Source: a virus
Strand: one strand, 5' to 3'
Virus record (IMG/VR): IMGVR_UViG_3300026097_001200
Location: 41,332-105,331 of that record
DNA length: 64,000 nt
Under the pieces are notes generated by a model that had not been told where the DNA came from, made no database searches, and saw only the letters and a program-made list of their open reading frames with translations. Below, piece after piece: positions 1,934-48,945 of this stretch (position 1 is the first letter of the stretch; every line of letters begins with the position of its first letter). Made by a program: the position numbers and the translations under genes.

Positions 1934-3190
1934 TTACTCTTGTCTCCATTCACGATCCAGCCAAGGAAATAAAGATCGCCAATCTGTGCCGCGTCTGCGG
2001 TCGATTTCATCTAGATATACCTGTAGATCTTGTATTCTCTCAACTCGTCGTATGCTGTTACTTATCTGCTGTTTAATGCCTTTCATGTGATCTTGTGCGT
2101 TGGTGTCTTTCATTTCGGCGATAATAGCATCTATGTCGTCCTCAAAAACTCCAGCTCCAAATATTGCTGGATCCATATGCGGCGGTGCCATTACTGTCAT
2201 AAAACTGTAGTTGATTGGATTGTGAGGCGGTCTTTTTTGATTCCATTCGTTGATTTTTCTAACCAATTCGGGAGCAGTTTTTATTGTAAGAGGACTGATT
2301 GCAGCATTGACACACTGCACTACCCAGGGCTTTTCTAACAAATATGTAAAGTTATCTTCCCATTCTTGTAAATCCAATCCCCAGCGAACATACTCTTCCT
2401 GCGGTCCCCAGCTGTCTAGACTTCCGGTTATTTGCAGTCTTTTAAGAGCACCTTTTTCTACCATCTGCTCGAACCGATCTATATATGCACGAAACTTTTT
2501 AGTTGGCACCTTGAGATTGGTAATAATATTAAAAGTGAGTTCAGGATTTGGGTGGCTTTCCCAGAAGTCAATGCTGAGATCAAACTCCTTTTGAAAAAAG
2601 GGTTCACCTCCTAATATTTGATAGTAGCGTATCTTTTTGTATCTGTCTTTGTCATGTAGATACTGCCAAAAGTCTGCCAGCTGTTGCTCGTAGTTTTCGT
2701 TTTTTTGACTCCAGTTGGCTATGTGTACACTGCCGTGTTTGAAGTCTCCAAACCGTTTAGTTTCTTCTTCCCACTTGGTACTGAAGTGCCCGCCGCAGTA
2801 GAGACAGGCCATGTTACATACATTGTTAAAATAAACTTCTAGTATTGTAGGCACTACTTCGTTGGTTTCTGGGTCTTCAAACAGTTCTTCTGGCGTTCTG
2901 TCTTGGTCGTGTCCTGCTTGCAGTTGATACAGTCTGTCACTGACACCTCCTGCTTCTTCGATTTTTTGGCAGTACTGACAGCCCTCTTGCGGCCATTCAC
3001 CGCGGCGCATTATTTCTCTGGCACGGACCTTGTTAGGAAGATTATGAAAACTTGCAAAGTCATCCAGTGGAATAGCTGCTTGATCAGTTCTGTGACAACT
3101 ACTGCTAGTGCCTTGTCCTAGATATACTGTGCTCCATGCCCACTTTAACAAGCAAGCTGTATCACCTTTTACTGGAAATATTTTTGACAT
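1934..3190 (-). CDS. radical SAM protein, subfamily B (N-terminal Cys cluster)
   Basis: 418 aa. The radical SAM motif CNMACLYC binds [4Fe-4S] with Cys125, Cys129 and Cys132, followed by a Gly-Gly-Glu-Pro motif typical of the SAM-binding strand. The N-terminus has Cys13, Cys32 and Cys71-x2-Cys74 ahead of the core. The same layout (Cys-x-x-x-Lys-Trp ... Ser-Cys-His ... Cys-x2-Cys) recurs in the genes at 41304, 42719 and 46673, so I call this subfamily B. Such enzymes resemble the twitch/SPASM-type rSAM proteins annotated in marine phages. The gene stands apart from the main rSAM cluster, beside two oxygenase-like genes. Substrate unknown. Confidence 0.85.
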   Translation of the reverse strand: MSKIFPVKGDTACLLKWAWSTVYLGQGTSSSCHRTDQAAIPLDDFASFHNLPNKVRAREIMRRGEWPQEGCQYCQKIEEAGGVSDRLYQLQAGHDQDRTPEELFEDPETNEVVPTILEVYFNNVCNMACLYCGGHFSTKWEEETKRFGDFKHGSVHIANWSQKNENYEQQLADFWQYLHDKDRYKKIRYYQILGGEPFFQKEFDLSIDFWESHPNPELTFNIITNLKVPTKKFRAYIDRFEQMVEKGALKRLQITGSLDSWGPQEEYVRWGLDLQEWEDNFTYLLEKPWVVQCVNAAISPLTIKTAPELVRKINEWNQKRPPHNPINYSFMTVMAPPHMDPAIFGAGVFEDDIDAIIAEMKDTNAQDHMKGIKQQISNSIRRVERIQDLQVYLDEIDRRRGTDWRSLFPWLDREWRQE

Positions 3191-3197
3191 GTTGTAA

Positions 3198-4328: not shown

Positions 4329-4333
4329 GAAAA

Positions 4334-4341: not shown

Positions 4342-4381
4342 TGCTTTGTTTTTACTGTCTTAACAAACAAATAAGTACACT

Positions 4382-4984: not shown

Positions 4985-4988
4985 CACA

Positions 4989-6248: not shown

Positions 6249-6253
6249 ATATC

Positions 6254-8965: not shown

Positions 8966-8978
8966 GTTTTAAAAGTTT

Positions 8979-9054: not shown

Positions 9055-9059
9055 TTTTT

Positions 9060-12214: not shown

Positions 12215-13180
12215 ATGAAATTAGAAAGAGTAGTACTTGAAGTTTTCGGCGGTTGTAACTACACCTGCGACATGTGTCCGCAAAGCACAGGACGTGGTCG
12301 CGACTTCACTCGCAAAATGCCGCTGGACCTGTTTGAATCTGTGCTTGATCAAATCACTCCACGCTACGGTACTCCTGTAATCAACCTTGAAGGTTCTGGT
12401 GAGCCTACGCTAGCACAGGACCTACCACTGTATGTAGAAGCTTGCACTCGCCGTGGATTGCCCAGCTTTATGTACTGCAACGGCGCACTGCTAAAAGGCA
12501 CATTCATGCAGGATGTGGTAGACGCTGGCATTGACTTTGTGAGATTCAGCTGCATTGGCTACAACAAAGAACTGTATGCCAAGTGGATGAGCACTGACAA
12601 CTTTGACTTGGTTAAACAAAACGCTGTTGACGCACAAGCCTATATAAAACAAACCAACAGCAGTTGCGAAATCAGCAGCTATCATCTCATACTCGATCCT
12701 GACCGCATGGACTACGAAATTTCACAGTATCAAACCAACTTTATTGATCCTGTTGGCAGTGTGGGTTATATTTGGAAAATGCACAACTGGAGTGGCAACT
12801 ACCAACCATTGTACTTTAGAAATCCCAAACAGAGAAAAACCTGCGGAAGACCATTTGCACCTGAACTCACTGTGAGAGCAGGAGGACTAGATGGCAAGCA
12901 AGGAGCAGTTACACCCTGTTGTCAGACCATGGGCCCACCAAACGAAGCACTCAGTGTACTAGGACACTTTGAAGACCAAAGATTCGAAGATATCTACTGG
13001 GGAGATGCATACGAACAGCTGAGATCTGCTCACAGCGAAGGCAGATTTGACGACATTGAATATTGCAAAAACTGTGATTTTTTGTACGATGATCCCGAAG
13101 TACTGGTATGGAGCAATGATCCAAATGCCAGTGTCAACTACATGCTGGGCACTGACTTTAAACTCAGTGACTATCAATGA
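12215..13180 (+). CDS. radical SAM protein with C-terminal SPASM-like cluster
   Basis: 321 aa. CNYTCDMC at Cys14, Cys18 and Cys21 is the canonical CX3CX2C motif at the very N-terminus. Leu-Glu-Gly-Ser-Gly-Glu-Pro follows as the SAM-binding GGE-type strand. Cys235-Cys236 and Cys284-x2-Cys287 form a C-terminal SPASM-like auxiliary Fe-S site. This is the most conventional rSAM/SPASM architecture of the eleven in the window; the others with auxiliary Cys carry them N-terminally. It is probably co-transcribed with the unknown gene overlapping its stop (ATGA). Substrate unknown; SPASM enzymes often modify peptides or sugars. Confidence 0.88.
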   Translation: MKLERVVLEVFGGCNYTCDMCPQSTGRGRDFTRKMPLDLFESVLDQITPRYGTPVINLEGSGEPTLAQDLPLYVEACTRRGLPSFMYCNGALLKGTFMQDVVDAGIDFVRFSCIGYNKELYAKWMSTDNFDLVKQNAVDAQAYIKQTNSSCEISSYHLILDPDRMDYEISQYQTNFIDPVGSVGYIWKMHNWSGNYQPLYFRNPKQRKTCGRPFAPELTVRAGGLDGKQGAVTPCCQTMGPPNEALSVLGHFEDQRFEDIYWGDAYEQLRSAHSEGRFDDIEYCKNCDFLYDDPEVLVWSNDPNASVNYMLGTDFKLSDYQ

Positions 13181-32178: not shown

Positions 32179-32516
32179 CTCTCCATATAATGCTGTATAT
32201 ATTGTACCTTGCCGGGCACATCTGTCCATGATTTGTGATCTGACAACGGGTCTATTTTTTGAGTAATATTGTTATCTGCCCATTTTGCTGATAGCTCTGC
32301 ATTTATTTTAAACCAGTCAATTCCGTCATCGGGTACTTCGTCTTCTGCAACAATGGCATCCACAGGACACTCTGGAATACAAACTGCACAGTCAATGCAC
32401 TCATCAGGGTTGATTACAAGAAAGTCAGGACCTTCGTAAAAACAGTCCACTGGGCATACATCAACACAGTCTGTGTGTTTGCATTTAATACAATTGTCAG
32501 TTACTAAGTGTGTCAT
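32175..32516 (-). CDS. FdxA-type 7Fe ferredoxin
   Basis: 113 aa, ribosome site TAGGAG. Cys9, Cys17, Cys21, Cys40, Cys43, Cys46 and Cys50 (with an additional Cys12 and Cys25) fit the bacterial FdxA family carrying [3Fe-4S] and [4Fe-4S] clusters, and the roughly 50-residue C-terminal extension is the right length. It carries electrons in the cytoplasm. The upstream, co-transcribed gene is its likely reductase, and the operon contains eight rSAM genes that need a low-potential electron donor. This redox pair is unusual in a phage. Confidence 0.92.
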
Positions 32517-36693: not shown

Positions 36694-37975
36694 AAATGTC
36701 TCTGTTGTGTTCCTGTAAAATATCGCCGTATCCATAGTTATCACTGCGGATACTCTCTAGTCGTAATACTCGCTTTTTACCTGCGACCAATCCTGACTGC
36801 CAGTCATCTGGCCATTGTTCTTGAAAGGTTGGCCTGTTTTTTAGCTGTAATAGTACGTCTTTTAGTGCGCCATTGGGTACGCTCTGTGATAAGCTGTCAA
36901 CTTGTTTATCTAACAATTCTCGAGGCAATGCCAATGGACTTAGCACAATATCCGGAGAGAATCCAAATACAACTTTTGCTAGTATATCCACACCCAGATC
37001 GTCGGCTAGCTGTTGCATAGGCTCTACTTCAAACAGCCCCGGCAGTGTGAGTGTGAAGTCTAATCGCATTTGTCTGCGATTTTTCTGTAGGTCTACACCT
37101 TGTTTAAAGTTATCTAAAAACTGTTGATAATTCAAGCCAGTGCGTATGTATTCGCCGATTTTACCAGTGCCATCTATGCTAGCACATATCTGCCAGTCTC
37201 GTATGTTACTGATAATGTCTTGATATAGATGCGCACCTTTGTACTCAATTCTACTGAGATTTGTATTGTACCGAGCATAAAGTCCAGGACCGTCTCCCAA
37301 TTCTACGATCCTGGACATATACCTCCAATGTTGCTCATACATTAGAGGTTCTCCGCCTACCCAATAAACTTCTTGCACCCTGTGTTCTTCAACAGCTTGA
37401 GCAAATTCAGCTTCAATCTGAGTGTCTTGAAATTTGGATATTTCTGCACGGACTTCGGGACGCATCCAATTGTTTTTAGGATTGTCCCAATCGATCATGT
37501 TGTGTTTTCGTTGTTCAGTTTCCCAGGCTGAACTCAACATGTCCCCGCAGGTTCTGCATTTAAAGTTGCAGAGATTACTGAAACGATAGTCCCAGCTAAC
37601 AGGTTGCATACTGGTATGTCCTGATTCGTCTGTGTTTTCCCATATATCGTCGTAGTGATGCTTAAACAGATGCCAGAAATAATCTCTATATACATCAGTG
37701 TTTAATAGTTTGTCATTGCACACTTCGCACTCGCTGAGGGTTTCGCCTGACATCATTCTACGGCGCACACTTTTCATGTGCTCGCTGTTCCAGTGTTCTT
37801 CTAGAGTGCTTGGTTGGTATTCGCCAGTGCCTGCGTCTGTGTCAATGTACTGTTTGAAATTCTGCGCAGGTTCTCTGCTGGCACAACACATTCTGCGCTC
37901 TGTTTGTGGACTGAGATAGGTGTGTGTCCACGGAGCCATACACAGACTGTGCGGTTTTTCTTTAGGTTTTGTCAT
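36659..37975 (-). CDS. radical SAM protein, subfamily A (CxxPW-CC-CxxC N-terminus)
   Basis: 438 aa. Core motif CNFKCRTC: Cys136, Cys140, Cys143. The N-terminus carries Cys12 (Cys-Met-Ala-Pro-Trp), Cys30-Cys31 and Cys83-x2-Cys86, the layout shared with 38381, 39601 and 44073, likely an auxiliary Fe-S site of SPASM/twitch type but placed before the core. Gly-Gly-Glu-Pro follows the core motif. Overlaps the nucleotidyltransferase upstream... downstream gene by 14 bp (that gene begins the next unit at 37962). Substrate unknown. Confidence 0.87.
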   Translation of the reverse strand: MTKPKEKPHSLCMAPWTHTYLSPQTERRMCCASREPAQNFKQYIDTDAGTGEYQPSTLEEHWNSEHMKSVRRRMMSGETLSECEVCNDKLLNTDVYRDYFWHLFKHHYDDIWENTDESGHTSMQPVSWDYRFSNLCNFKCRTCGDMLSSAWETEQRKHNMIDWDNPKNNWMRPEVRAEISKFQDTQIEAEFAQAVEEHRVQEVYWVGGEPLMYEQHWRYMSRIVELGDGPGLYARYNTNLSRIEYKGAHLYQDIISNIRDWQICASIDGTGKIGEYIRTGLNYQQFLDNFKQGVDLQKNRRQMRLDFTLTLPGLFEVEPMQQLADDLGVDILAKVVFGFSPDIVLSPLALPRELLDKQVDSLSQSVPNGALKDVLLQLKNRPTFQEQWPDDWQSGLVAGKKRVLRLESIRSDNYGYGDILQEHNRDIYDWWQSIPIIG

Positions 37976-38384
37976 TGTGTAAAGAGGCTACTCTGCGTCT
38001 TAGATCGCTGCTGCTGAACCGATGTTCTCTTTTATTGAAGTATAACTGAATACCACGCTTTTTGCAAATATCTTTGCCAGTGAAGTCATGCTCTCTGTAT
38101 TCTTCTCCAAGTATGCGCACATCTATGTGCATCATTTCTAAGATGTCTTCTAAATCTCTTTCATTTTCGTACACAACAATTTCATCTACATAGCGCACAG
38201 CCTGTAGCTGTGTATATCTTTCTACCAGTGTTTGCACAGGAGAGTTTTTGTTAGCACGGTCGCGGCTTGGATCCACTTGAAGTCCTACCATTAAGTAATC
38301 GCACTGTTCCTTTGCTTCGCGCAGCATTGCTACATGTCCTGCATGTAACAGGTCAAATGTACTACAGGTAAATCCTACTTTCAT
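37962..38384 (-). CDS. TagD-like nucleotidyltransferase
   Basis: 140 aa, the size of glycerol-3-phosphate cytidylyltransferase. Thr-Phe-Asp-Leu-Leu-His14-Ala-Gly-His17 is the HxGH nucleotide-binding motif, and His-Arg-Phe-Ser-Ser-Ser-Asp-Leu-Arg is the C-terminal (K/R)xxxSSSxxR-like motif. The family activates polyol or sugar phosphates as CDP or NDP derivatives. In this operon it could make the activated donor for the glycosyltransferases (inference). Overlaps both rSAM neighbours by a few bp. Confidence 0.88.
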   Translation of the reverse strand: MKVGFTCSTFDLLHAGHVAMLREAKEQCDYLMVGLQVDPSRDRANKNSPVQTLVERYTQLQAVRYVDEIVVYENERDLEDILEMMHIDVRILGEEYREHDFTGKDICKKRGIQLYFNKREHRFSSSDLRRRVASLHNDKT

Positions 38385-39604
38385 TGCACACCCTCATACT
38401 CAATCCATTCTGCTAATTCACTGTGATGATCTCTAAGGTCTTGACTGCGCTTGAAATCCAAGTCTCTTACCTTCATGCGTAGTATTTGTCCGTCGTGACT
38501 TGGGCCGCCGTTCATAAAATCAATTATACGCTCGAACTCTTGTTTATGCTTGGGTCCAACATCGGCACTGCGAAGTCGCTGTTCGATTTCATGTTTTGCA
38601 CGACTAGGTAATGTGCTAATACTGAAATAATAAGCTTCGTGCATCATGTTCCAGTATACAAAATCAAACTCCTGCTGGTCAATCCAATTAGCCAGTGTTT
38701 CTAGATATGTAACATTGAACACATTTACTGTGCTACATACCTGAAGTTGTATTATATCAGGGTAACGTTGTTTAAGCTCCCGGAAACGAGAGATATTCTC
38801 GTTTACTAGATTCCACTCAGCATTACTGCGTTGATACTCAAAGCGATCTTCTACATCATCTATGCTGAATGCAATCTCAACAGTCTTAAAGTGCTTCCAA
38901 AGATCTTCGCCGGATTCTGGATAAATTGTACCGTTTGTGTTGTAGTGAATTTCTACATTGTTTGCGATGCCTTTGTCAACCAAGCTTTGCAAGATGCCAA
39001 AGTGTTCTTGAATCATAAACGGTTCGCCGCCTGTGAATTCAATATAGCGTATATCATCGCTTACATTATCAAATTGATCCCAGAACGTTTCAGTTTCTTT
39101 TGGCCAGGCACCTTTTTTCAACATCTCATAGTGATAGCTGTCTTTTTTATCGCCTTCTTCTCTTCTATGAAATTGCAATTCCTCGGCAGCAAACTGTGAA
39201 CTAGACCATGAACCACAAATTCTGCACTTGAGATTACAGATGTTGCCAAGTTTGAGATCAAGAAACATCAAAGGTTTAGCATCCACAGTCCATTCCTGTT
39301 CCGGTAGCACATGTTTCAAGCGATCCAAAGTGTGCATGCGTTTACTGGTACGGCCTGCACGTTCTTCCTTCCAGCATTTCCTACATGTGCGAGGTTGCTT
39401 GCCATCTAGAAACTGTTGTCTTAAATCCTGCATGTAATCGCTGCGTTGTATTTCACCCAAGTCGCTGGCAATAAGTTCAAATTTTTCACCGTTGTTGTCT
39501 TTGATTTCGTCTTCGGCAAGACAACAAGGTCGAACTGTACCAATGGGACTGGTTTCTAAACTAATCCATGGTAATACACAAAACTGTTCGTGTGGTAAAT
39601 TCAT
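38381..39604 (-). CDS. radical SAM protein, subfamily A
   Basis: 407 aa. Core motif CNLKCRIC: Cys123, Cys127, Cys130, then Phe-Thr-Gly-Gly-Glu-Pro. N-terminal Cys9 (Cys-Val-Leu-Pro-Trp), Cys27-Cys28 and Cys74-x2-Cys77-Trp repeat the subfamily A layout. ATGA overlap with the nucleotidyltransferase gene, and 4-bp overlap with 39601. Ordered between two other subfamily A members, as expected for tandem duplication. Substrate unknown. Confidence 0.88.
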   Translation of the reverse strand: MNLPHEQFCVLPWISLETSPIGTVRPCCLAEDEIKDNNGEKFELIASDLGEIQRSDYMQDLRQQFLDGKQPRTCRKCWKEERAGRTSKRMHTLDRLKHVLPEQEWTVDAKPLMFLDLKLGNICNLKCRICGSWSSSQFAAEELQFHRREEGDKKDSYHYEMLKKGAWPKETETFWDQFDNVSDDIRYIEFTGGEPFMIQEHFGILQSLVDKGIANNVEIHYNTNGTIYPESGEDLWKHFKTVEIAFSIDDVEDRFEYQRSNAEWNLVNENISRFRELKQRYPDIIQLQVCSTVNVFNVTYLETLANWIDQQEFDFVYWNMMHEAYYFSISTLPSRAKHEIEQRLRSADVGPKHKQEFERIIDFMNGGPSHDGQILRMKVRDLDFKRSQDLRDHHSELAEWIEYEGVQ

Positions 39605-41322
39605 CGTAGTGCCTCTAATTCTGGAATTTGTTCTAGTATGTTTTCGTTTCTTATTTGATCAAGCTGATCGGTCTTGGACCAAAACTCATCTATTAGTGCT
39701 GTGTTGTCTGTGCTGTTCATAAACCGTATTGCACTTTCGAAGCCTTGGGTAGCACGTTGTAGATCATCCTGCGGACGCAACCATTCCAGGTGTTGTTCCC
39801 ATTTGTGTTGTAGTTTTGCTTTGTACTCTGCAGGTGCAATGTCAATCCTGTAATGCCTTGGATCTTGTAGTATGTTAACATTGAGATCCTGTGCACGTAA
39901 CAAACCTTTGTTGACCCAGTCTTGGTGGAAATCAGTAATATGCCATGCATTCATTATACTCAGTGTAGGACTAATATAAAAGTCCACGTCAGGACAGATT
40001 TCCAGCATCTGCTGTCTGTTGCGTTCCACGTTTGCCCAGGTAGTGCCTTTGCGAATATACTCTGCGTGATTACCCATTGCATCGAGACTGGCACCGACAG
40101 CTACACTGTCAAACTTTTTCCAGTAGTCAAACACCAGTCTATCCTTGAGTTTGACTTCAGTAAAGTTGCTGTTGTAGATTAAACGTACATCAAATCTGCC
40201 GCGACGTTCAAGTTCTTCTAAAATGTTGTAGTGTTCTATCATCAACAGAGGCTCACCGCCAGCAAAATAAATTTGCTCTACGTCGTCGATGTGCTCGACC
40301 AACTGTTCCCACATATCAGTTTCGTGTCTGCCAGCATAGATAAGCACACTGTTTTGTTTTTTCCAATCGTCACCTGCTAGCTTGGCTTGATCTTGATACC
40401 AACTACTAGAGAATATATGTCCGCAACTTCGACAGCTTAGATTACAGAGATTACTAAAACGTATGTCCCAGTAGGTCATTGAAAATTGGTCTACACTACC
40501 GTCTTGTTTGGTATCTTTGATGCGTTTAATATGGTGACCATGGTGCTTGTTTGCGCTTTGTCTTCCTGAGAAAAATCCTGCATCTTCTTGCTCATAGCAT
40601 CGAGTGCACCAAGAGTTTTCTTTTTCAGATAACATGTCTCTGCGAAGTTCGCGCATGCGCTCGCTGTTGTTTATATTCTCTAGTGTGTCCTGCTTGGCAT
40701 TACCTGCAGGGCCTTCACGCATTTCAGCATGACAGCATGGGTACACATCACCAGTGGGATATGCATGTAAATGAATCCATGGATATATACAAAAGCGTTT
40801 ACTGCCAGTGAGATAAAACTGTTCACTGTCAGTTACGTCATTGAGATTAATTTTAATTGGATTTAGACTACCGTAACGATATTCGTCTTTTTTACTAGTG
40901 GGTAATCTTTCTAATATTCTTCTATGATGTAGATCTTGTTCAACGTAGACAAATTCAACTGACACAGGGTCATTGCTTAGATCTTTTAATCGACTTTGTT
41001 GTTCTTGCCAGTGTGAGCTATTAGTTACTATTATAACAAAAAAATTGCTAATGTCAACATGGTTTAATGCCAGTTGCAGATTTTGCAACACCAGGCCCAC
41101 AGTATCATCTTGTACATAACTGTCAGTGGTAGTTGTAAACACCAGGCGTTCTTGGTCACTGTAAGCATCCTTTCGTAGTCGTGCAAGCAATTCAACCAAC
41201 TGTTGTTGCATGTCTTCGTAGTGCAATTCAACATAATAATCAAGATCAACAGTGGACACAACTGTGTAGGTTTTTTCTATACTGTTTAAGGTATTTTCAT
41301 ATTTCATAAATTGTTGTACCAT
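39601..41322 (-). CDS. radical SAM protein, subfamily A, with extra N-terminal domain
   Basis: 573 aa. Residues 1-170 form an extra alpha/beta domain with no Cys, absent from the relatives. Then the subfamily A layout follows: Cys178 (Cys-Ile-Tyr-Pro-Trp), Cys196-Cys197, Cys239-x2-Cys242, core CNLSCRSC at Cys293, Cys297, Cys300, and Ala-Gly-Gly-Glu-Pro. The added domain could bind a substrate or partner. An ATG at 41307 is an alternative start. Overlaps both neighbours (4 bp and 19 bp). Confidence 0.85.
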   Translation of the reverse strand: MVQQFMKYENTLNSIEKTYTVVSTVDLDYYVELHYEDMQQQLVELLARLRKDAYSDQERLVFTTTTDSYVQDDTVGLVLQNLQLALNHVDISNFFVIIVTNSSHWQEQQSRLKDLSNDPVSVEFVYVEQDLHHRRILERLPTSKKDEYRYGSLNPIKINLNDVTDSEQFYLTGSKRFCIYPWIHLHAYPTGDVYPCCHAEMREGPAGNAKQDTLENINNSERMRELRRDMLSEKENSWCTRCYEQEDAGFFSGRQSANKHHGHHIKRIKDTKQDGSVDQFSMTYWDIRFSNLCNLSCRSCGHIFSSSWYQDQAKLAGDDWKKQNSVLIYAGRHETDMWEQLVEHIDDVEQIYFAGGEPLLMIEHYNILEELERRGRFDVRLIYNSNFTEVKLKDRLVFDYWKKFDSVAVGASLDAMGNHAEYIRKGTTWANVERNRQQMLEICPDVDFYISPTLSIMNAWHITDFHQDWVNKGLLRAQDLNVNILQDPRHYRIDIAPAEYKAKLQHKWEQHLEWLRPQDDLQRATQGFESAIRFMNSTDNTALIDEFWSKTDQLDQIRNENILEQIPELEALR

Positions 41323-42722
41323 TCGGCTAGACGGGGGAACGTTACTGCAAAGTTCTTGTTACGTCTTCTGTCATACTGCTCAAAGAAACGTTTGAAATCT
41401 TGTTGTAAAAGCTTGATATCATTCTGCCCTTGTTGAAGTTCATAGGGCGTAAGATCATGTTTAGTTACATCTTCCTTGTGCGGATCTACTACATTGCGTA
41501 TGTATTTGCTGATACGCTGAATATGGTCTCTTTCCAAATGGTCGATTACATCTAACACATCAGTACTGGCCATGAATTCATCAATTTCATTTGCAATGGT
41601 TTCTCGGACATCTTCGGGCAACACAACAATGTTTTGAAATGTTGGGAAACGTACTGGATTAATAGTAAACATCAAATTTTTGCCCTGAGGTTTGGCGGTT
41701 TTTTTCTTTTCTACCAGCCACTTTAAAAAATCAACAAAGCCATCAGCATTTGGTGCATTAATAGTGCCAATAATACTGATATCCCCTATGTCTTTGCTTG
41801 CAATTAAACGATCAAGATTTCGTTCCCATTGTTGCCAATCCAGACCGTCCCTCACATACTCGCCCTGAGCACCAACACTTTCACTGCTAACATAAGTCCA
41901 CACAGGTAAATCTATCCTGCTGATTTTGTCTAGCATTTTGTCAACCACTTTATCGTCGTATGCAAGATTGGTTGTGATTTCAATCCTGCATGTTGCCTTG
42001 CTTGGATTTTTCTCTAGCCAGTCCAACAGTCTCCACATATGAGGGCTCATCATCGGCTCACCGCCTGTGATACGCAGTTGTTTTAAACTGGCAGCTAAAC
42101 TGTCTTCCCACCACTGAAAAAATGCTTCTGCGTACTGGTTAACTTCGTTGGGTCCACTGGTCATGCTGTCATCGCAAGGCGAAACATAATGTTGTCTGCG
42201 ATCAGTTTCCAGCCCTTCATATGCGCCGTTATTGCGCACATCAGTTGCCCAACTGCTGCTGATACTAGGACAACAATAGCTGCATGCCAACTGACAGGTT
42301 CTATCAAACGCAATTTCTAAATATAGTAAATCAACATCTTGATCAGCTGGAGCATCAAATGCTGACTGTAATTGTTCTTCACTGGCAATAGTACTTAACC
42401 AATACCTATCTGCAAGATTATTAGGATCTGTTTCTTCCATAACCCAACAAAATTGACAGTTAGCTGGTTTCTCGCCACGTTGCATCATTGCACGTTCATT
42501 TTTCTTAACTGAGGTATTGTGCAATGCTCGGGGATTTTTTTTAATCTCTTCTATATCAATTGCATGCGGTGGATTGTGATGGCAACTTGTAGTCCACCCT
42601 TGCTGAAGCCACACACTGGCATTATACCACTTAGCACCACAGAAGCTAGGACTCTTGCTGTTAAGCACTCGATCTTTCCACTCTCGGTATTCAGTGTTGT
42701 TGTAGAGTTTTATTTTTTTCAT
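41304..42722 (-). CDS. radical SAM protein, subfamily B
   Basis: 472 aa. Core motif CQLACSYC: Cys143, Cys147, Cys150, followed by Ile-Thr-Gly-Gly-Glu-Pro. N-terminal Cys28 (Cys-Gly-Ala-Lys-Trp), Cys47 (Ser-Cys-His-His-x-Pro-Pro-His) and Cys89-x2-Cys92-Trp match 42719 and 46673 closely, and 1934 more remotely. The Pro-Pro-His block may be part of the auxiliary site. Overlaps 42719 by 4 bp. Near-neighbour 42719 is its closest paralogue. Confidence 0.88.
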   Translation of the reverse strand: MKKIKLYNNTEYREWKDRVLNSKSPSFCGAKWYNASVWLQQGWTTSCHHNPPHAIDIEEIKKNPRALHNTSVKKNERAMMQRGEKPANCQFCWVMEETDPNNLADRYWLSTIASEEQLQSAFDAPADQDVDLLYLEIAFDRTCQLACSYCCPSISSSWATDVRNNGAYEGLETDRRQHYVSPCDDSMTSGPNEVNQYAEAFFQWWEDSLAASLKQLRITGGEPMMSPHMWRLLDWLEKNPSKATCRIEITTNLAYDDKVVDKMLDKISRIDLPVWTYVSSESVGAQGEYVRDGLDWQQWERNLDRLIASKDIGDISIIGTINAPNADGFVDFLKWLVEKKKTAKPQGKNLMFTINPVRFPTFQNIVVLPEDVRETIANEIDEFMASTDVLDVIDHLERDHIQRISKYIRNVVDPHKEDVTKHDLTPYELQQGQNDIKLLQQDFKRFFEQYDRRRNKNFAVTFPRLAEWYNNL

Positions 42723-44071
42723 AGTTGGGAGTACCAGCTGTTTAGATCAGGAAATGCTGTAGCAAAATCCAAGTCTCTGCGCTCGTCATACTGCGAATAA
42801 AACTTTTTAAAGTCGTTTAAAAGTTTTGGATGTTCAAAGGTTTCTGAGTGCGGAGTTTTTACAACATCTAAGTAATCTATTAAACGTTGTAGGTGATTGA
42901 TTTCGTGTTGATGTAGCAGTGTATTGTTCTTGTGAGTATTTAACCATGATTCAAGATCTTGTTTATATTTTGTGCGTATGTGGTCAGGAAATATCAACGG
43001 ACTCTGAAAACTAGGAAAACGTAAAATATTCAATGTAAAGTTAGGACGGTCCTTGCCAAACTCTGCTTTCCATTCTAGTACCCGATCTAAAAATTCAGGT
43101 AGACTGTCCAGGCATAGTGCATTGATTGTGCACATGTTATGCAAACTGCGTATTTGCGGACTGCGTACCAATAGGTCCATATTGCGTAACCATAGATTCC
43201 AATTTAATCCGTGGCGGATGTACTCAGCTTGCTGATCCATACTTTCGTTACTGGTGTAAATATCCAGTTCGATATCTTTGCAAGCATCCAGTAGTTCTTG
43301 AATCTTTTCAGTAGGCAGGCTCAAGTTGCTGTTGATAGCCAGGCGAGTTTTACTTTTTCCACGATTTTGTTTAAACCATTCAATCAGTCTCCAGGTATAT
43401 CCGCTCATCAATGGTTCGCCGCCAGTGATCCTCAATTCTTTCAGTGTGCGGTGAAGATCACTTTCCCACCAACGAAAAAATGCTTCTACATATGGGTTTT
43501 CTTCATTGATAGTAAATAGTTGTGCACTGTCATGTGGATGTGTAAAGTGATTACGACCGTCACTGACCAGTCCGTTGTATGCGCCATTGCGTTTTACGTC
43601 CTTTACCCACGTACTGGAAAATGCAGGATTACAATAGCTGCATGCCAGTTGACAGGTTCTATCAAAACTAATCTCCAGTGTTTGCAGATCTATATCTGCA
43701 TCCGGGTCTGTTTCAAAAGCAGTTTGCAGATCATTGTCGTTATAAATCACACTTTTATACACACGATCGCTGACTGCGTCACGACCCATGTCTTCTATTT
43801 TCCAACAGTACTCGCACCCAGGTGGACGCTCGCCACGCTGCATCATTGCTCGATCTTCTTTTTTCTCTGGCGTGTTGTGCAATAGCTTGGGATTATCAGT
43901 GATATCCTTTACAGGCACCAGATGCGCAGGTGGATGATGACAACTAGTAGTCATGCCCGACCCAAGCCAGATAGTAGCATTGTACCACTTGGCTCCGCAA
44001 AAACTAGCACTTTTACTGTCTAGTACTCGCTTGCGAAATTCTAAGTCTGATTCGTTGTTAAGTCTTGTCAT
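42719..44071 (-). CDS. radical SAM protein, subfamily B
   Basis: 450 aa. Core motif CQLACSYC: Cys140, Cys144, Cys147, with Ile-Thr-Gly-Gly-Glu-Pro. N-terminal Cys25 (Cys-Gly-Ala-Lys-Trp), Cys44 and Cys86-x2-Cys89-Trp. Identical core motif and matching flanks (Phe-Asp-Arg-Thr before it, Asn-Gly-Ala-Tyr after it) show a recent duplication with 41304; divergence is larger in the C-terminal third, where substrate specificity may lie. Confidence 0.88.
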   Translation of the reverse strand: MTRLNNESDLEFRKRVLDSKSASFCGAKWYNATIWLGSGMTTSCHHPPAHLVPVKDITDNPKLLHNTPEKKEDRAMMQRGERPPGCEYCWKIEDMGRDAVSDRVYKSVIYNDNDLQTAFETDPDADIDLQTLEISFDRTCQLACSYCNPAFSSTWVKDVKRNGAYNGLVSDGRNHFTHPHDSAQLFTINEENPYVEAFFRWWESDLHRTLKELRITGGEPLMSGYTWRLIEWFKQNRGKSKTRLAINSNLSLPTEKIQELLDACKDIELDIYTSNESMDQQAEYIRHGLNWNLWLRNMDLLVRSPQIRSLHNMCTINALCLDSLPEFLDRVLEWKAEFGKDRPNFTLNILRFPSFQSPLIFPDHIRTKYKQDLESWLNTHKNNTLLHQHEINHLQRLIDYLDVVKTPHSETFEHPKLLNDFKKFYSQYDERRDLDFATAFPDLNSWYSQL

Positions 44072-44072: not shown

Positions 44073-45197
44073 TTAATATGTTACCCAGCCGTATTCAAAT
44101 TCAGGCAATACTTTAAGTATATTCCGTTTCCTAATATTATCTCTTAGTTTTATTTCCTTACAAAACTCATCCCAGAGTCCTCTATTAAAAAAATATTTTT
44201 GGTCAAGGAACTGTTTAAGTCCTGGATGCAAATCCTTAACTAATTCAATCTTGTTAACTGCACCAGCGTAAATTTCCGGGGGTAGATTGTTCCAAGTGTA
44301 TATTCGCGGAGTAAACAGTTTTGCAAAATGACAATTTAATTGTTTTTTATTTGCATATTCTACAACTTCTATTATACGACAGAAATTTAAATTTGTCACT
44401 GTACAATTAAGTGTAATGGCATTTAGATTATCAATTGTTTTAAAAGTATCTATATTGGAGTCAATGTCATTCCACTTACTAGGAAATCTAATATACTCAT
44501 TTACAGGTCCTACTCCATCAATACTTATCATGATGTCAACACTGTTGAATTTTGAAAAAATCTCCTGCCACTTTTCAGGAAACACTGTTCCGTTTGTCTG
44601 AATGCGCAAGTGTATTTCTGAACACCAATCAGGATCAGCATCAATCAGTAACTGTTGTATCTCAGGCACAATCAAGGTTTCGCCTCCACGAAGATCCAAC
44701 ACTTCTATGTCTTGCTCGACAACACTAGCAAAAATTTCACCAAGTCGCTCTGAAGTGTATTGACAATCGCTCTGTCGTGGTGTTGACTTACCTATAAGTC
44801 TGTCTTCTGCTAGTAACATAGAACTGTCTTGAGGAACACACATTAAGCATTTCAGATTGCAAAGATTGCTTACGTGAAATTCTATACGTCGAGGGAACTC
44901 GATATTTAAGTCTGCATCTGTGATATTAATAGCAGCTAGAGCTTCTGTTCTTGGTGATGTTCCGCTAGCTTCTTCCTGTACATAGCATCCATTGCAATAG
45001 CTGTTCTTTTTACCAGCAATCATGTCACTACGAAGACTAGTCATTTGGTCACTTAAGAAAAAATCTTGTATACTGTGATTATTCAATGAGTAGTCTGGCT
45101 TAGCAAAGCAACATGGTGATTGTTTTTTGTCGTTGCGAATTACTACGCTGGTAAATGCATATGGACAAATAGCTTCATTATTCTCGGTGTTTATCAC
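44073..45197 (-). CDS. radical SAM protein, subfamily A
   Basis: 374 aa from GTG 45197 with a GAGG site 6 bp upstream; it overlaps the previous gene by 20 bp. Core motif CNLKCLMC: Cys113, Cys117, Cys120, then Leu-Arg-Gly-Gly-Glu-Thr, a variant of the usual GGEP. N-terminal Cys11, Cys29-Cys30 and Cys68-x2-Cys71 give the subfamily A layout. AT-richer than the other members. Probably a separately acquired relative. Confidence 0.83.
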   Translation of the reverse strand: MINTENNEAICPYAFTSVVIRNDKKQSPCCFAKPDYSLNNHSIQDFFLSDQMTSLRSDMIAGKKNSYCNGCYVQEEASGTSPRTEALAAINITDADLNIEFPRRIEFHVSNLCNLKCLMCVPQDSSMLLAEDRLIGKSTPRQSDCQYTSERLGEIFASVVEQDIEVLDLRGGETLIVPEIQQLLIDADPDWCSEIHLRIQTNGTVFPEKWQEIFSKFNSVDIMISIDGVGPVNEYIRFPSKWNDIDSNIDTFKTIDNLNAITLNCTVTNLNFCRIIEVVEYANKKQLNCHFAKLFTPRIYTWNNLPPEIYAGAVNKIELVKDLHPGLKQFLDQKYFFNRGLWDEFCKEIKLRDNIRKRNILKVLPEFEYGWVTY

Positions 45198-46680
45198 TGT
45201 AATCCTCGATATGCTGTATTATTTTTTTATGTTTTGCGTAAGAAGCAAATCCACCATGCGCATTATCATATTCATGGTCTATGTTTTTGTATTCTTCAAC
45301 ATGCCAGTAAGGATGTAATGTATTACAACTGTCAATTGATTTTTTCATTGGCAACTCTAACCATGTACATATATGTGCTAAGGTTTCCTGCGGCGAAAAA
45401 ATTATGTCTTTTAAAAGAATTTTCTTAATGTTTCTGTTTTCAATGGCGTCGTTGAAGTGCGCAGGAAAGGCAAACAAATTGTTGGCAAAATTCAGTGCAG
45501 ATTCTTTGTGCAAGACAGTGTGTAAAGTGCGCAATACATCTTCTAATTCAAAATTTTTATTTTGTATTACAATCAAATTTTTTACTCGGGTTTGTAAATA
45601 GCCAAACCATTCGTTGATGTTTATCTTGTGTTGCTCTAAGAGCTTATTATGACTTTCGATTGATGTTTCATAAAACAGATTATCACTGTCAGTAATATGA
45701 TGTAAAACCTCCGTTAAGCATTGGCTAGCTACGCTGGTATTATGTACAATTAAATTACAGTCTGCAAGGGTTTTGTTGACTACCTGATCGTAAATCTCAT
45801 TTAATATTTTTTCTTTTTTTTCTGCAATGTAAAATACAGCAGGATAAATGTTTCTAACTTTTGGAGTAGCCAACAAGTCTACAAATTCTTGACTCTGTAT
45901 TGGTAACTGTTTTAAACAGTCATGATAAATTATGCTGTCAGTACTTGATATTGATTTTAATTGTGTTAAATGTTGCCTTATTTTTTGTTTATGTATATCT
46001 GGAATTTTTTCACGCAACACTGGATTTTTATCTCTGAACAAAGTTAGAATTTTTTCATCTTGATCTAGGTACGCCTGTCTATCCTGCCAAAAATTGATAG
46101 ATTCTTCTATCTCCTTGGTAGATCGTGCACTATTCTTATGTTTCCACCATTGACATAAGGTAGTTAACGTCTTCACTGGTCTGTTAACCAACTGTTTCAT
46201 TTTAACTACATGTAAGTTGCAGTGTTCGATACTGTTAATCTGGTTTGATGCATTTTGAAAAGTAGAGATTGCTCTTGCTAGTTCAATAACATTTGTAACT
46301 TTTGTAAAACTGCAAAAGGGCATTTCGGGTTGTCTATTGTTGAGCAATTCTAGTATGCAGTTTGTAGGATCAATGACCACTGTAGGACCCGTGTCTGCAA
46401 TTTCTAGAATGTCAGATTCTATGTCATTGACATTGTAATGTAATCTCACTATGCTACTTGTTGTGTTTGTATTTGTAAGATGATATTCATCGTGTCTATT
46501 GATAAAATTATCACGATAATTGTGTACGCTACCGTTTTCGGTTATAACGTCTTCAATGCTTTGGTAATTTAGATCATCTAACCATCCTAGTGCCCAGCAT
46601 AAAAAGTTTCCGTAATCTCCGCCTGTATGTACTACACGGAGATCAAACTGTTCGAGATATTTCAAATAGTCGTCATGCAT
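45178..46680 (-). CDS. unknown 500-aa protein, weakly sulfotransferase-like
   Basis: The N-terminus (Val-Val-His-Thr-Gly-Gly-Asp-Tyr-Gly-Asn) and the C-terminus (Leu-Ala-His-Ile-Cys-Thr-Trp-Leu-Glu-Leu-Pro ... His-Pro-Tyr) faintly resemble the ends of phage sulfotransferase-like proteins, but no clear PAPS-binding motif is seen, so I leave the function open. The sequence is AT-rich with Asn, Ile and Lys bias, unlike the rSAM genes on both sides. Overlaps both neighbours by 8-20 bp. Confidence 0.55.
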   Translation of the reverse strand: MHDDYLKYLEQFDLRVVHTGGDYGNFLCWALGWLDDLNYQSIEDVITENGSVHNYRDNFINRHDEYHLTNTNTTSSIVRLHYNVNDIESDILEIADTGPTVVIDPTNCILELLNNRQPEMPFCSFTKVTNVIELARAISTFQNASNQINSIEHCNLHVVKMKQLVNRPVKTLTTLCQWWKHKNSARSTKEIEESINFWQDRQAYLDQDEKILTLFRDKNPVLREKIPDIHKQKIRQHLTQLKSISSTDSIIYHDCLKQLPIQSQEFVDLLATPKVRNIYPAVFYIAEKKEKILNEIYDQVVNKTLADCNLIVHNTSVASQCLTEVLHHITDSDNLFYETSIESHNKLLEQHKININEWFGYLQTRVKNLIVIQNKNFELEDVLRTLHTVLHKESALNFANNLFAFPAHFNDAIENRNIKKILLKDIIFSPQETLAHICTWLELPMKKSIDSCNTLHPYWHVEEYKNIDHEYDNAHGGFASYAKHKKIIQHIEDYSDKHRE

Positions 46681-48097
46681 GATTGTTTTTACTCCTATAC
46701 TCGCACAGCTTCCACCAGTCGCTCATCTCTGGAAAAGTTTCCTGGAAGTTTGTATTTCTTCTTCGATCATGCTCGCTGAAAAATCTATAAAAGTCAGCCT
46801 GTGCACAATGTAGAAATTCTGTGTCTAAATCTTGCCCGTTTCGCATCCAGGCAATGTCACGATCCAATCTCTGTATTTCGTAGTCCTTAAATCCTTTAAG
46901 TCGTGTGTCTGCTGTTTCGGCTTGTGCAATCATCCAGCTCCACAATCTTTCCAGTTGTACTACATAGCTTTCTGGCAGTATCTGCAGGCTCTGCCACTCA
47001 GGTTGTCTTAGCACAGGAGTATCAAACCAAACTCGCTGATAGGTCTCGCTGTACACTTTACGCAAGCCCAGTATACCAGCAAATAGATCACCTAGGCTAG
47101 GAACACTGAGATTGTTCATAGTTACAATAAAAGTAAGACTGCTACGCTCTGGCACTTCATTTAAAAATTGATTGCATCTATCCCACATGAGATCAAAGTC
47201 AAGACCGTTGCGCATGTATTCTGCTTGCTTGCCCCAGCCGTCGACACTGACAAACTGCATATAGTGTTCAACATGTCCTTCGTTGCACAAACGCTTGACA
47301 TATTCTAAATATTTTTTCCACAAACGTTCATCAACGCTGAAATTACTAGTAACATTTAAATGCAATTTGGGATTAGGATTTTCCAACACATAATCAAATA
47401 CACGATAGGTATTTTTATCCATCAACGGCTCGCCACCGGTCATACGAAAGTGTTCTAGTTCTGGATATAGTTCAGGCCACCATTTCCAAAATGCTTCTAC
47501 ATAAGGATTGTGTTCTCTTGCAGGTATCGGGCGGCGATCTCCTTGAAAGTGTTTTGGGTCGTTGTGCGGTGTACTAGTAGGCCATGCACCATGTTTTTCA
47601 GTTTCTTCCATCCACGAACTACTAAACTGCGGACTGCAATAGCTGCACCGCAGATTGCATGCACTGTTAAAGTTTACTTCTACATATGCAGGATTCACAT
47701 CTTCGTCACCGGTGCTGGCAATAATATTATCAAAATCTTTGGCGGCCCACGGCTCACCTGATCTATAGTGTCTGTCGCTGAGTTTACCGTTATCCTCCAT
47801 TGCCCAACAATAGCTGCATTCTTCTGGACGTTCTCCGGCAAGCATACGTTTACGCTGTTGTTTTTTCCAAGCAGTGTTGTGCAGTGCGCTGGGATTGTTT
47901 TCGAGTTCAAGTGCATCAATTCTATGCAAAGGAGGATGATAACAACTGTTGTTATAGCCATTGGTGAGGTGTAAACTAACCTGTTTCCACTTTGCTAGAC
48001 ACATGCCAGGGCCAACCTGATTCAGTGCGTCTCGCATGTCTTCTGCGTTGGTAATAAACCCACTGCGAAAGTCTTTGTTTACTTCGTCACCTTTCAT
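46673..48097 (-). CDS. radical SAM protein, subfamily B
   Basis: 474 aa. Core motif CNLRCSYC: Cys147, Cys151, Cys154, with Met-Thr-Gly-Gly-Glu-Pro. N-terminal Cys33 (Cys-Leu-Ala-Lys-Trp), Cys52 (Ser-Cys-Tyr-His-Pro-Pro) and Cys94-x2-Cys97-Trp fit subfamily B. The Ser-Ser-Trp-Met-Glu-Glu after the motif parallels 41304/42719. Overlaps 48094 by 4 bp. Substrate unknown. Confidence 0.88.
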   Translation of the reverse strand: MKGDEVNKDFRSGFITNAEDMRDALNQVGPGMCLAKWKQVSLHLTNGYNNSCYHPPLHRIDALELENNPSALHNTAWKKQQRKRMLAGERPEECSYCWAMEDNGKLSDRHYRSGEPWAAKDFDNIIASTGDEDVNPAYVEVNFNSACNLRCSYCSPQFSSSWMEETEKHGAWPTSTPHNDPKHFQGDRRPIPAREHNPYVEAFWKWWPELYPELEHFRMTGGEPLMDKNTYRVFDYVLENPNPKLHLNVTSNFSVDERLWKKYLEYVKRLCNEGHVEHYMQFVSVDGWGKQAEYMRNGLDFDLMWDRCNQFLNEVPERSSLTFIVTMNNLSVPSLGDLFAGILGLRKVYSETYQRVWFDTPVLRQPEWQSLQILPESYVVQLERLWSWMIAQAETADTRLKGFKDYEIQRLDRDIAWMRNGQDLDTEFLHCAQADFYRFFSEHDRRRNTNFQETFPEMSDWWKLCEYRSKNNHA

Positions 48098-48945
48098 AGA
48101 TCTTTTTTATACTCTGCGTAGATTTGATCGCCGTTGTACTTTTCTGGACAGAATTTGCACTGCGGTATACTATTGCCGATATTGGCAAAGAACTGTTCTT
48201 TGTTTTCTGCGTCTACTGTTAGCGGTTGATAACTTTGCATGAGTTTTCTGTCACTGTTACTTAATTGTAATTGATACTGCGAGTCAAATTCTGGCAGCAG
48301 TGCTACCACGCCACACTTGTAGAGTTTTCCGTCTATCCAGTGGTGACAATTTTTCATGTGGCAATTGCTGTGAGCCAATTCTGGATCGCTGTTGTGTAAC
48401 CGCTTTACACCAAGTTGATCTATTATAGATCCTTGATGAAACCACCAGTTGTATTCAATCCGGGTAGCAATGCCATTGCAGTCTCGCAAAATTCTGTAAA
48501 CATTGTACGGATCATCGTTGTTTACAGTATCGATCACTGGCCCTTCTAACCATTGATGAACTCTAGAAACCACATCCGGTACATGATTTTCGTTGTGTAT
48601 ACCAACCCATACGCTAAATCTGTCTTTGTACTCTCTATTGAGATCGTAAAGATCTTGTCTGTGTTCAATTCTATAGCCATTGGTAATCAATCGCAAGTAT
48701 GTGTCGGGCCAAAGCTCAAGTATGCCGCGGCACCAATCAATTACATCTGGATTAAGCAAAGGTTCTCCACCAAGCACTGCACAGTGTCTAATAGACACAG
48801 ATTTACTCCACTCTCGGTACACAGGTTCTAAATCTGCCCAGCGTTGGCGTCCACGGAAGTTGTAGTTGTTGAATCTGTTGCAACCAGGGCAACTGAGATT
48901 GCACACATTGGTAATGTAAAATTCAGAATAATCTAATTGGTGCAT
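48094..48945 (-). CDS. radical SAM protein, short form
   Basis: 283 aa. CNLSCPGC at Cys15, Cys19 and Cys22 starts the protein, followed by Val-Leu-Gly-Gly-Glu-Pro-Leu-Leu-Asn. Cys residues near the C-terminus (Asn-Cys-His-Met-Lys-Asn-Cys and Cys-Lys-Phe-Cys) may hold an auxiliary cluster, so it resembles a compact SPASM-type enzyme, different from subfamilies A and B. It is the 5'-most rSAM of the main operon. Overlaps the glycosyltransferase-like gene by 13 bp. Confidence 0.86.
   Translation of the reverse strand: MHQLDYSEFYITNVCNLSCPGCNRFNNYNFRGRQRWADLEPVYREWSKSVSIRHCAVLGGEPLLNPDVIDWCRGILELWPDTYLRLITNGYRIEHRQDLYDLNREYKDRFSVWVGIHNENHVPDVVSRVHQWLEGPVIDTVNNDDPYNVYRILRDCNGIATRIEYNWWFHQGSIIDQLGVKRLHNSDPELAHSNCHMKNCHHWIDGKLYKCGVVALLPEFDSQYQLQLSNSDRKLMQSYQPLTVDAENKEQFFANIGNSIPQCKFCPEKYNGDQIYAEYKKDL

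Follow-up and report, generated by a model that had tools for sequence, protein, structure and literature searches.

A conserved five-enzyme radical SAM operon in T4-like phages and its lineage-specific ferredoxin and ferredoxin reductase

Why a phage should carry a run of radical S-adenosylmethionine (SAM) enzymes together with a ferredoxin and a ferredoxin reductase is the question raised by a 64,000-nucleotide stretch of viral DNA from the IMG/VR record IMGVR_UViG_3300026097_001200. This stretch (the window) corresponds to bases 41,332-105,331 of the record, which is linear, 105,331 bases long and possibly a fragment. The initial annotation listed eleven radical SAM proteins, an FdxA-type ferredoxin and an Fpr-type reductase, and proposed a self-sufficient radical SAM factory that runs independently of host electrons. 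Here we report that the locus contains a conserved operon in which five non-redundant twitch radical SAM enzymes are encoded together with a carbamoyltransferase, a protein of GT-A fold and a tentative cyclophilin-like protein; in T4-like phages this operon lies in the tail-fibre region. Fpr plus FdxA are this lineage's version of the candidate supply genes found in the operon. The best reading of the operon is a surface-modification pathway, probably for a glycan, that is fed electrons by Fpr and FdxA.

Results

Radical SAM proteins of the window

All eleven radical SAM proteins were recovered as open reading frames (ORFs) at the positions first reported, with eight of the genes inside 36.7-48.9 kb (Table 1). 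Domain searches placed them in the radical SAM superfamily, as predicted: PF04055 matched 11/11 at E ≤ 1e-3, and the twitch radical SAM model NF033640 was passed by 8/11 at its cut-off of 170 bits. The Pfam cut-off for PF04055 (29.5 bits) was exceeded by seven proteins; the other four (1934, 36659, 41304 and 46673) scored 26.2-28.1 bits, below that cut-off, and passed NF033640. The three proteins that failed NF033640 were 12215 (15.3 bits), 48094 (27 bits) and 15280 (not listed). Every sequence analysed for the five core genes described below has the CX3CX2C motif, which was read directly in the other six proteins. Over the whole record there are 15 PF04055 matches (E ≤ 0.001), four of them outside the window; one of these four is the QueE-like protein described below.

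A conserved core of five enzymes

A scan of viral contigs with the protein encoded at 39601 (C39) returned 237 contigs, the best 80 of which were kept as loci. Five twitch radical SAM proteins, here termed E46, D42, C39, B38 and A36, recur across these loci, and they are accompanied by a predicted GT-A-type protein, U499 (74 loci), by U356 (69) and by the carbamoyltransferase (65). Gene order is alike in most of the 40 loci compared over the full operon, the part downstream of C39 being compared in all 80, and many apparent losses of core genes fall at the ends of the available sequence. The N-terminal cluster cysteines are invariant in A36, B38, C39, D42 and E46 (69, 74, 84, 71 and 79 sequences, respectively, this phage's included), five such cysteines being found in C39. 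Within this phage the five proteins are 19-31% identical to one another, whereas each is mostly about 54-78% identical between phages, which argues for five distinct and old jobs. The ratio of nonsynonymous to synonymous substitution rates (dN/dS) was 0.015-0.049 for four of the five; that of B38 was not computable because dS was saturated. By sequence, no solved structure lay close to C39 at 1e-3, and among 50,697 annotated phage records distant C39 relatives were found in three (two Vibrio phages and one single-cell marine virus), at 22-25% identity.

The ferredoxin and the reductase

The two redox genes proved real by both profile and structure matches, and they stand at the end of the minus-strand run, as had been described. 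FdxA is closest among solved structures to the Azotobacter vinelandii-type 7Fe ferredoxin I (best 1.5e-44), with the cluster cysteines aligned. Fpr is closest to the NADPH:ferredoxin reductase 2bgi (1.9e-59), which we take to be the Rhodobacter capsulatus protein, and also matched 1a8p; it fails the E. coli-type equivalog NF008178 (122.8 bits versus a cut-off of 390). In A. vinelandii, ferredoxin I (FdI) and FPR are physiological partners. The phage proteins resemble that pair in that FdxA is near ferredoxin I and Fpr is near 2bgi and 1a8p, and they differ from it in being phage-encoded within a radical SAM operon, with an Fpr far below the E. coli-type cut-off.

Overlapping or +7 nt junctions join fpr and fdxA to the radical SAM block. 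The same two genes end the operon in a second phage, G002, which is 83% identical to this one in DNA over the longest aligned stretch; between the two, dN/dS was 0.064 for fpr and 0.030 for fdxA, rough values given dS >1, consistent with purifying selection. A further record, G001, comes from the present phage itself, judged by all the DNA that was compared (19.5 and 21.7 kb). In the record survey described below, FdxA and Fpr in the operon thus amount to two distinct phages, G001 duplicating this record. Among the 50,697 annotated phage records, FdxA was found in 5 and Fpr in 11, several of the latter bacterial-looking by name.

Does the redox pair track the number of radical SAM genes?

The survey covered 51 records: this one, plus each of the 50 among the 80 C39 loci whose record measures 50 kb or more. 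Every one of them has between 5 and 21 NF033640 matches (E ≤ 0.001), and a T4-like genome with 12 radical SAM genes has been published (PMC5332604), so the number in this window, earlier called remarkable in combination with a redox chain, is ordinary among its relatives. Records fetched with the DNA polymerase formed a second set (every record of 20 kb or more among the 80 loci retained, 24 in total; G002 is shared with the first set); here NF033640 was passed above cut-off in 12 and matched at any level in 18, and FdxA and Fpr were each present in 1/24, namely G002.

FdxA was found in 7 of the 51 records, Fpr in 5 and both in 4. The number of NF033640 matches rises with record length (rho 0.58), and records carrying FdxA (p 0.0027) or Fpr (p 0.048) had higher raw counts because these records are longer: after length correction the values were p 0.18 for FdxA and p 0.36 for Fpr and, once the lineage was collapsed, p 0.53 for FdxA. 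Two records with 19 NF033640 matches each, G007 and G042, lack both FdxA and Fpr. On this sample, the idea that radical SAM number drove the acquisition of FdxA and Fpr was therefore rejected, and the predicted tie between the redox genes and radical SAM number gave way to independent variation at the level of counts. What stands of the proposed factory is a supply role for radical SAM chemistry, which remains the best reading of fpr and fdxA given their operon position, the purifying selection on them and the Fpr, SAM synthetase or nucleosidase genes in the operon of other lineages; the pair is a lineage-specific accessory and not a requirement.

FdxA co-occurs with Fpr (4/7 versus 1/44 records, Fisher p 0.0007) and with metK, the SAM synthetase gene (5/7 versus 8/44, p 0.008), in tests that ignore kinship and length; metK is present in 13/51 records. 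As a possible substitute, the plant-type ferredoxin Fer2 (PF00111) was sought and found in 0/51 records, flavodoxins and other Fer4 ferredoxins being outside this search.

FdxA was also considered as a marker of radical SAM clusters and rejected, as a twitch radical SAM gene was found in the available flanks of just 12 of 80 FdxA loci (the best 80 of at least 595 viral contigs). Elsewhere, FdxA adjoins FolE-, QueE- and metK-like genes or an A-type Fe-S carrier (by eye). One such order is seen in G021 (L257), which reads FolE-like, FdxA, QueD-like, QueE-like and metK, and indicates that FdxA and metK accompany a 7-deazaguanine-type radical SAM pathway too. In the viral Fpr family (the best 80 of 86 contigs), a DpdA/TGT-like gene is nearby in 22 loci and a twitch radical SAM gene in 8.

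Candidate supply genes in the operon of relatives

Genes of three kinds that could serve radical SAM chemistry occur inside the operon of relatives, and from their patchy distribution we infer that they were inserted into it. Fpr lies between U356 and the carbamoyltransferase in L401/L402, L405 and L428, with no FdxA in the available sequence. On a tree of 78 of the 80 Fpr loci (L454 and L455, partial matches, were omitted) the operon Fprs occupy three separate positions and the starred branches force 3 changes; from these sequences, Fpr apparently entered the operon in three acquisitions.

The gene metK is in the operon of 9/80 loci, directly after U356 or one gene further on. The carbamoyltransferase follows it in seven of the nine and is unseen in the available sequence of the other two. 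Two of the nine were checked by profile and scored 431.4 and 430.8 bits against TIGR01034 (cut-off 309.4). This phage's record carries its own metK outside the window (445.9 bits), just downstream of a QueE-like radical SAM gene that scores under the QueE model cut-offs, with one AMP-ligase-like gene between them. In a metK scan (the best 80 of at least 384 contigs), a QueE-like radical SAM gene was nearby in 46 loci and a twitch radical SAM gene in 14.

A nucleosidase gene is in the operon of 13/80 loci: in L090 at the U356/carbamoyltransferase junction and in the twelve others after B38. The four that were checked by profile exceeded the PF01048 cut-off of 25.1 bits (42.5-52 bits) and lay under the NCBIfam equivalog cut-offs (best 80-85 bits versus 129 for PRK05634, 'nucleosidase'); the operon nucleosidase profile matches methylthioadenosine (MTA)/S-adenosylhomocysteine (SAH) nucleosidase structures. 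The L090 protein shares 36% identity with the reference copy and its gene occupies another junction, so that the operon probably gained a nucleosidase at least twice. Change counts on a C39 tree of 79/80 loci (6 for the nucleosidase and 4 for metK) were left unused; they are too high because loci cut before the junctions were scored as insert-free. A tblastn search with one query found no nucleosidase in this record.

The nucleosidase family was itself scanned, using the best 80 of at least 424 viral contigs; L090 is not among them, so operon cases are missed by this sample. All 18 close relatives (the query set included) have a twitch radical SAM gene in the available flanks, as against 0/62 distant loci. 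A general role as a companion of radical SAM genes was therefore rejected, and the family has presumably another role elsewhere. DNA polymerase lies near 16 of the 62 distant loci.

Operon neighbours and likely product

The carbamoyltransferase matches solved O-carbamoyltransferases, GdmN and TobZ included, and fails the NodU equivalog NF041651 (135.9 versus 1000 bits). The amidinotransferase gene, a convergent neighbour, is without a Pfam match, and its predicted assignment comes from homology to solved amidinotransferases; its likeness to SxtG is the homology of one enzyme only. Homologues of aminoglycoside-type tailoring enzymes (TobZ for the carbamoyltransferase, StrB1 for the amidinotransferase) thus stand beside twitch radical SAM genes here; unlike in those pathways, no aminocyclitol scaffold genes were recognised, none having been sought. 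Twitch radical SAM enzymes do occur in aminocyclitol pathways.

The AlphaFold2 (AF2) model of U499 has a predicted local distance difference test score (pLDDT) of 85.7 and, over approximately residues 1-160, resembles GT-A and nucleotidyltransferase folds with VIA Z scores of up to 9.2; Foldseek alone gave no match at E ≤ 0.001 (best E 1.1e-3). The model of U356 aligned to cyclophilins over 141 residues (VIA Z 8.1, rmsd 3.5), with nothing from Foldseek alone at E ≤ 0.001 (best E 0.68, to kinases).

A genome scan with the C39 alignment returned 37 cellular loci, of which 12 were read. In Bacteroidota, a twitch radical SAM gene stands directly before a carbamoyltransferase in L269, with a UDP-sugar dehydrogenase and an ABC ATPase within reach, beside a UDP-sugar dehydrogenase and a glycosyltransferase in L262, and beside an ABC-2 permease in L277. 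In the acidobacterial L266 the neighbours include an ABC-2 permease together with a family-2 glycosyltransferase; its radical SAM protein is unconfirmed by profile, and the locus was left uncounted. The carbamoyltransferase, the amidinotransferase, the GT-A fold, these cellular loci and the pelagimyophage island discussed below together favour a surface glycan.

Long runs of such genes were seen on contigs of Elusimicrobia metagenome-assembled genomes: L263 and L285 hold four to six consecutive proteins of 543-1078 aa that best match the C39 twitch radical SAM protein, and L270 holds two C39-type proteins among other radical SAM-like ORFs.

The gene block and its surroundings

The operon is part of a minus-strand block of 26 ORFs running from 63738 to 32175, with gaps of at most 44 nt or overlaps; the sole larger gap, of 161 nt, lies between the 35599 and 33929 genes. 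Its order is a 2323-aa virion structural protein, tail-fibre-type genes, glycosyltransferase-like genes (by eye), the radical SAM run, the carbamoyltransferase, fpr and, last, fdxA. The features are collected in Table 1.

Table 1. Features of the window, with the number of C39 loci (of 80) in which each occurs; counts for radical SAM proteins are best assignments
Feature	Coordinates	Strand	Loci	Evidence
E46, core twitch radical SAM	46673..48097	-	80	NF033640 330.2 bits; CX3CX2C in 79/79 orthologues
D42, core twitch radical SAM	42719..44071	-	80	NF033640 302.8 bits; CX3CX2C in 71/71
C39, core twitch radical SAM	39601..41322	-	80 (bait)	NF033640 403 bits; CX3CX2C in 84/84
B38, core twitch radical SAM	38381..39604	-	79	NF033640 337.1 bits; CX3CX2C in 74/74
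A36, core twitch radical SAM	36659..37975	-	71	NF033640 292.1 bits; CX3CX2C in 69/69
U499, predicted GT-A-type fold	49907..50830	-	74	Invariant DGD motif; mean column identity 73%
U356, tentative cyclophilin-like barrel with helical insertion	35599..36744	-	69	AF2 pLDDT 88.3
O-Carbamoyltransferase (NodU/TobZ superfamily)	33929..35437	-	65	PF16861 166.8 and PF02543 133 bits, over cut-off; phrog_1601
Fpr, NADPH-ferredoxin reductase-like FAD protein	32524..33231	-		PF00175 and PF00970 over cut-off (FAD- and NAD-binding domains)
FdxA, 7Fe-type ferredoxin	32175..32516	-		NF045490 151 bits, cut-off 135
Predicted amidinotransferase (AGAT/StrB1/SxtG superfamily), convergent	31138..32178	+	48	Profile A3 versus solved structures, best 1.3e-25
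Accessory small radical SAM	48094..48945	-	8	PF04055 43.8 bits; no named NCBIfam model passed
Accessory twitch radical SAM	44073..45197	-	2	NF033640 257.3 bits
Accessory twitch radical SAM	41304..42722	-	4	NF033640 277.1 bits
Distal twitch radical SAM	1934..3190	-		NF033640 223.8 bits
Distal radical SAM/SPASM protein	12215..13180	+		PF04055 45.3 bits; PF13186 31.6 bits
Distal radical SAM, B12-binding match below cut-off	15280..16806	+		PF04055 41.8 bits; PF02310 27.5 bits (cut-off 32.1)
2323-aa virion structural protein, head of block	56767..63738	-		phrog_10938 5.5e-66
Tail-fibre and virion-type region, upstream of operon	56086 (region 53711..56748)	-	21	phrog_11259 (function unassigned)
Tail-fibre-type, upstream of operon	54683	-	42	phrog_19602 tail fiber; phrog_14394 virion structural; Peptidase_G2
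Tail-fibre region, upstream of operon	53711	-	52	No match
Small protein	53361..53666	-	57	No Pfam match
Glycosyltransferase-like (by eye)	52576..53364	-	61	No Pfam match
Glycosyltransferase-like (by eye)	51786..52595	-	65	Weak phrog_1903 (function unassigned); no Pfam match
Small protein	51473..51805	-	49	
Methyltransferase-like (by eye)	50832..51482	-	1	
Glycosyltransferase-like (by eye)	48933..49913	-	32	No Pfam/NCBIfam/PHROG match
Protein within radical SAM run	45178..46680	-	2	No Pfam/NCBIfam/PHROG match
Cytidylyltransferase-like (RfaE domain II/glycerol-3-P cytidylyltransferase type)	37962..38384	-	8	PF01467 56.1 bits; TIGR02199 80.6 bits, below cut-off 181.5
SGNH-hydrolase-like (by eye)	33216..33941	-	1	No Pfam match

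The T4 late promoter motif is absent from the block, its single match in the window being at 12201 versus 3.5 expected, and a sigma-70 promoter scan was near chance (61 found versus 54.4 expected). Terminator-like sites numbered 21 versus 13.8 expected, with 20 lying on the plus strand, and were left unused as evidence. An Rfam riboswitch search of the window and of loci L082 and L083 returned three tRNAs as its only matches and none in the block; tRNA-Trp, tRNA-Asn and tRNA-Cys lie consecutively at window positions 8892-9135.

Small SGNH-hydrolase-like proteins (by eye) are found at window 33216-33941 and 26187-27056, at L083:16388-17083 and at 40399-41127 of record C1, and they are frequent cargo within the radical SAM operon of relatives. 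The 1002-aa protein encoded at window 27007-30015 contains a unit, built around 'DPPYIYVFGNQW', that is repeated; relatives occur in 22/80 loci. Proteins of the periplasmic solute-binding type (TRAP/DctP-like and TTT-receptor-like, by eye) are encoded at window 5028-5987 and L082:7071-7976.

To the left of the window, the record encodes a T4-like DNA polymerase and a clamp, among others (all assigned by eye). A 7-deazaguanine-type set also lies there (L082:14772-16229, L083:5607-6302, L083:7327-7983, L083:10588-11457 and L083:12848-13948), with metK near its end; it consists of a TGT/DpdA-like gene (by eye) and FolE-like, QueD-like and QueE-like genes, these three all under model cut-offs. The QueE-like protein L083:10588-11457 reads CNFRCQGF at the CX3CX2C site, its third cysteine displaced, and the G021 relative reads CNFKCAGF.

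Discussion

We favour, with a probability of about 0.5, a conserved operon that builds or modifies a surface component, most likely a glycan of the virion or the host envelope, with Fpr and FdxA as its lineage-specific electron supply. At each turnover of a radical SAM enzyme the [4Fe-4S] cluster takes one electron, one SAM is cleaved and 5'-deoxyadenosine leaves; the three kinds of gene added to the operon (Fpr, metK and the nucleosidase) fit these three needs of the cycle. Fpr would take electrons from NADPH and hand them to FdxA, which would deliver them to the [4Fe-4S] clusters of the operon enzymes, the phage proteins topping up the host supply during infection. In the lineages that carry them, MetK would supply SAM and the nucleosidase, by its candidate activity, would remove 5'-deoxyadenosine. 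The operon enzymes would then build or alter the surface component in several radical steps. A more specific version, in which at least five radical steps lead to a carbamoylated, possibly amidinated surface sugar and a modular upkeep kit of Fpr/FdxA, MetK and nucleosidase has been assembled repeatedly, is tentative and on balance doubtful. According to PMC8102628, 5'-deoxyadenosine inhibits radical SAM enzymes, and its usual bacterial cleavage route is MTA nucleosidase plus a kinase. The operon nucleosidases correspond to the MTA/SAH nucleosidases (Pfs/MtnN) that remove this by-product in their PF01048 and structure matches, while scoring below the equivalog cut-offs.

Several observations weigh against this reading. 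The glycan part is suggested by the neighbouring genes, and 8 of the 12 cellular loci read show no polysaccharide-type context (L266 being unsettled); the loci that do not fit include one of Paenibacillus next to acyl-carrier and ketosynthase-like genes, several of Flavobacteriales surrounded by haem-type genes (both contexts named by eye) and the Elusimicrobia runs of twitch radical SAM genes. On the supply side, neither FdxA nor Fpr is present in 43/51 operon-bearing records, and genes of the viral Fpr family mostly lie close to the DNA polymerase gene (38/80 loci), with FdxA nearby in 3/80. Of the 62 distant nucleosidase loci, which lack a twitch radical SAM gene in the available flanks, 36 have at least 10 kb of flank, and metK is present in 3/24 records of the DNA-polymerase set, one of which (G051) is without any NF033640 match. 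The approximately unbiased (AU) test does not reject a single clade of operon Fprs (p 0.060). The junctions that take up supply genes also hold SGNH-like (by eye), FkbM methyltransferase (by profile) and oxygenase-like (by eye) genes, and which functions count as 'supply' was decided after the genes had been seen. Finally, the records are metagenomic fragments, hence absences are uncertain.

The unrelated genes at these junctions lead to the foremost alternative, namely that the insertions are general cargo traffic. Here the carbamoyltransferase junctions would be general insertion sites, without a functional link to the radical SAM enzymes, and fpr-fdxA would serve oxidative stress, 7-deazaguanine chemistry or another phage or host oxidoreductase. 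The company kept by the viral Fpr family (DNA polymerase or a DpdA/TGT-like gene), the FolE/QueE/metK-like genes and Fe-S carrier beside FdxA elsewhere, and the many operon records that lack both genes are all consistent with this explanation. It accounts less well for the presence of three kinds of gene fitting radical SAM upkeep in this one type of operon, Fpr and the nucleosidase apparently having entered more than once, for the twitch radical SAM genes near all 18 close nucleosidase relatives in that sample, and for the purifying selection that keeps fpr-fdxA in place. We regard it as possible, although not probable.

SPASM/twitch radical SAM enzymes with known function often act on peptides, and a second alternative is post-translational modification of the tail fibre or baseplate proteins of the phage, with the cyclophilin-like protein handling the substrate and Fpr/FdxA still feeding the radical SAM enzymes. 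The weak matches of these enzymes to peptide maturases, the position of the operon directly after tail-fibre-type genes and the tentative assignment of U356 point this way. Inspection by eye revealed no precursor-peptide-like gene (a dedicated search was not made), the carbamoyl-, amidino- and GT-type neighbours better fit small-molecule or glycan chemistry, and some cellular relatives lie in polysaccharide-type clusters, which together make protein modification an unlikely explanation. A self-sufficient factory, with the redox chain acquired to serve a large number of radical SAM enzymes independently of host electrons, would agree with fpr and fdxA in the operon, a phage metK, the 15 PF04055 matches of the record and the raw counts, and is nevertheless very improbable in view of the length-corrected counts, the two records with 19 matches and neither gene, and the NADPH that would itself be host-derived.

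The favoured reading, an operon for surface modification with accessory electron supply, has precedents in part. Many radical SAM genes in one T4-like genome (PMC5332604) and radical SAM cassettes in tail-fibre islands (PMC7029224) have already been reported. The former case is TARA_ERS488813_N000010, a T4-like genome of 183 kb with 12 radical SAM genes (Nishimura et al. 2017; PMC5332604), which shares with this phage the Fe-S theme and the proposal that the phage supports Fe-S enzymes. Its support differs, consisting of an A-type Fe-S carrier, Grx and PaaD; the radical SAM section of that paper mentions no radical SAM operon, Fpr, FdxA, metK or nucleosidase, and the word 'ferredoxin' is absent from its main text (PMC5332604). 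The pelagimyophage host recognition cluster (Zaragoza-Solas et al. 2020; PMC7029224) resembles this locus in being a variable island that holds tail fibres, glycosyltransferases, genes of the rfaE type and radical SAM cassettes, and its glycosyltransferases are interpreted by the authors as changing the host surface against coinfection. It lies between VrlC and gp14, whereas the gene found at the head of the block here encodes a 2323-aa virion structural protein of the phrog_10938 family, a candidate counterpart at most. That cluster is hypervariable, whereas the radical SAM core here is conserved; its main text, as available, treats radical SAM genes in passing, describes neither a five-enzyme core nor supply genes, and does not contain 'ferredoxin' (PMC7029224). 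In the literature searched (titles and abstract starts, with most subscription journals outside), neither a conserved five-enzyme radical SAM core nor Fpr, FdxA, MetK and nucleosidase genes within it were met, and in the sources examined phage radical SAM genes are simply enumerated.

A conserved five-enzyme core whose cluster ligands are intact, with candidate genes for electron supply, SAM supply and possibly by-product removal in the operon, would make both the roles of the enzymes and the limits on radical chemistry during infection testable. The natural reductant is often missing for orphan radical SAM enzymes; here a defined set of proteins comes with a natural candidate reductant for in vitro work. 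If the more specific version above, with its repeatedly assembled upkeep kit, were true, viral evolution would reveal what limits radical SAM flux in the infected cell.

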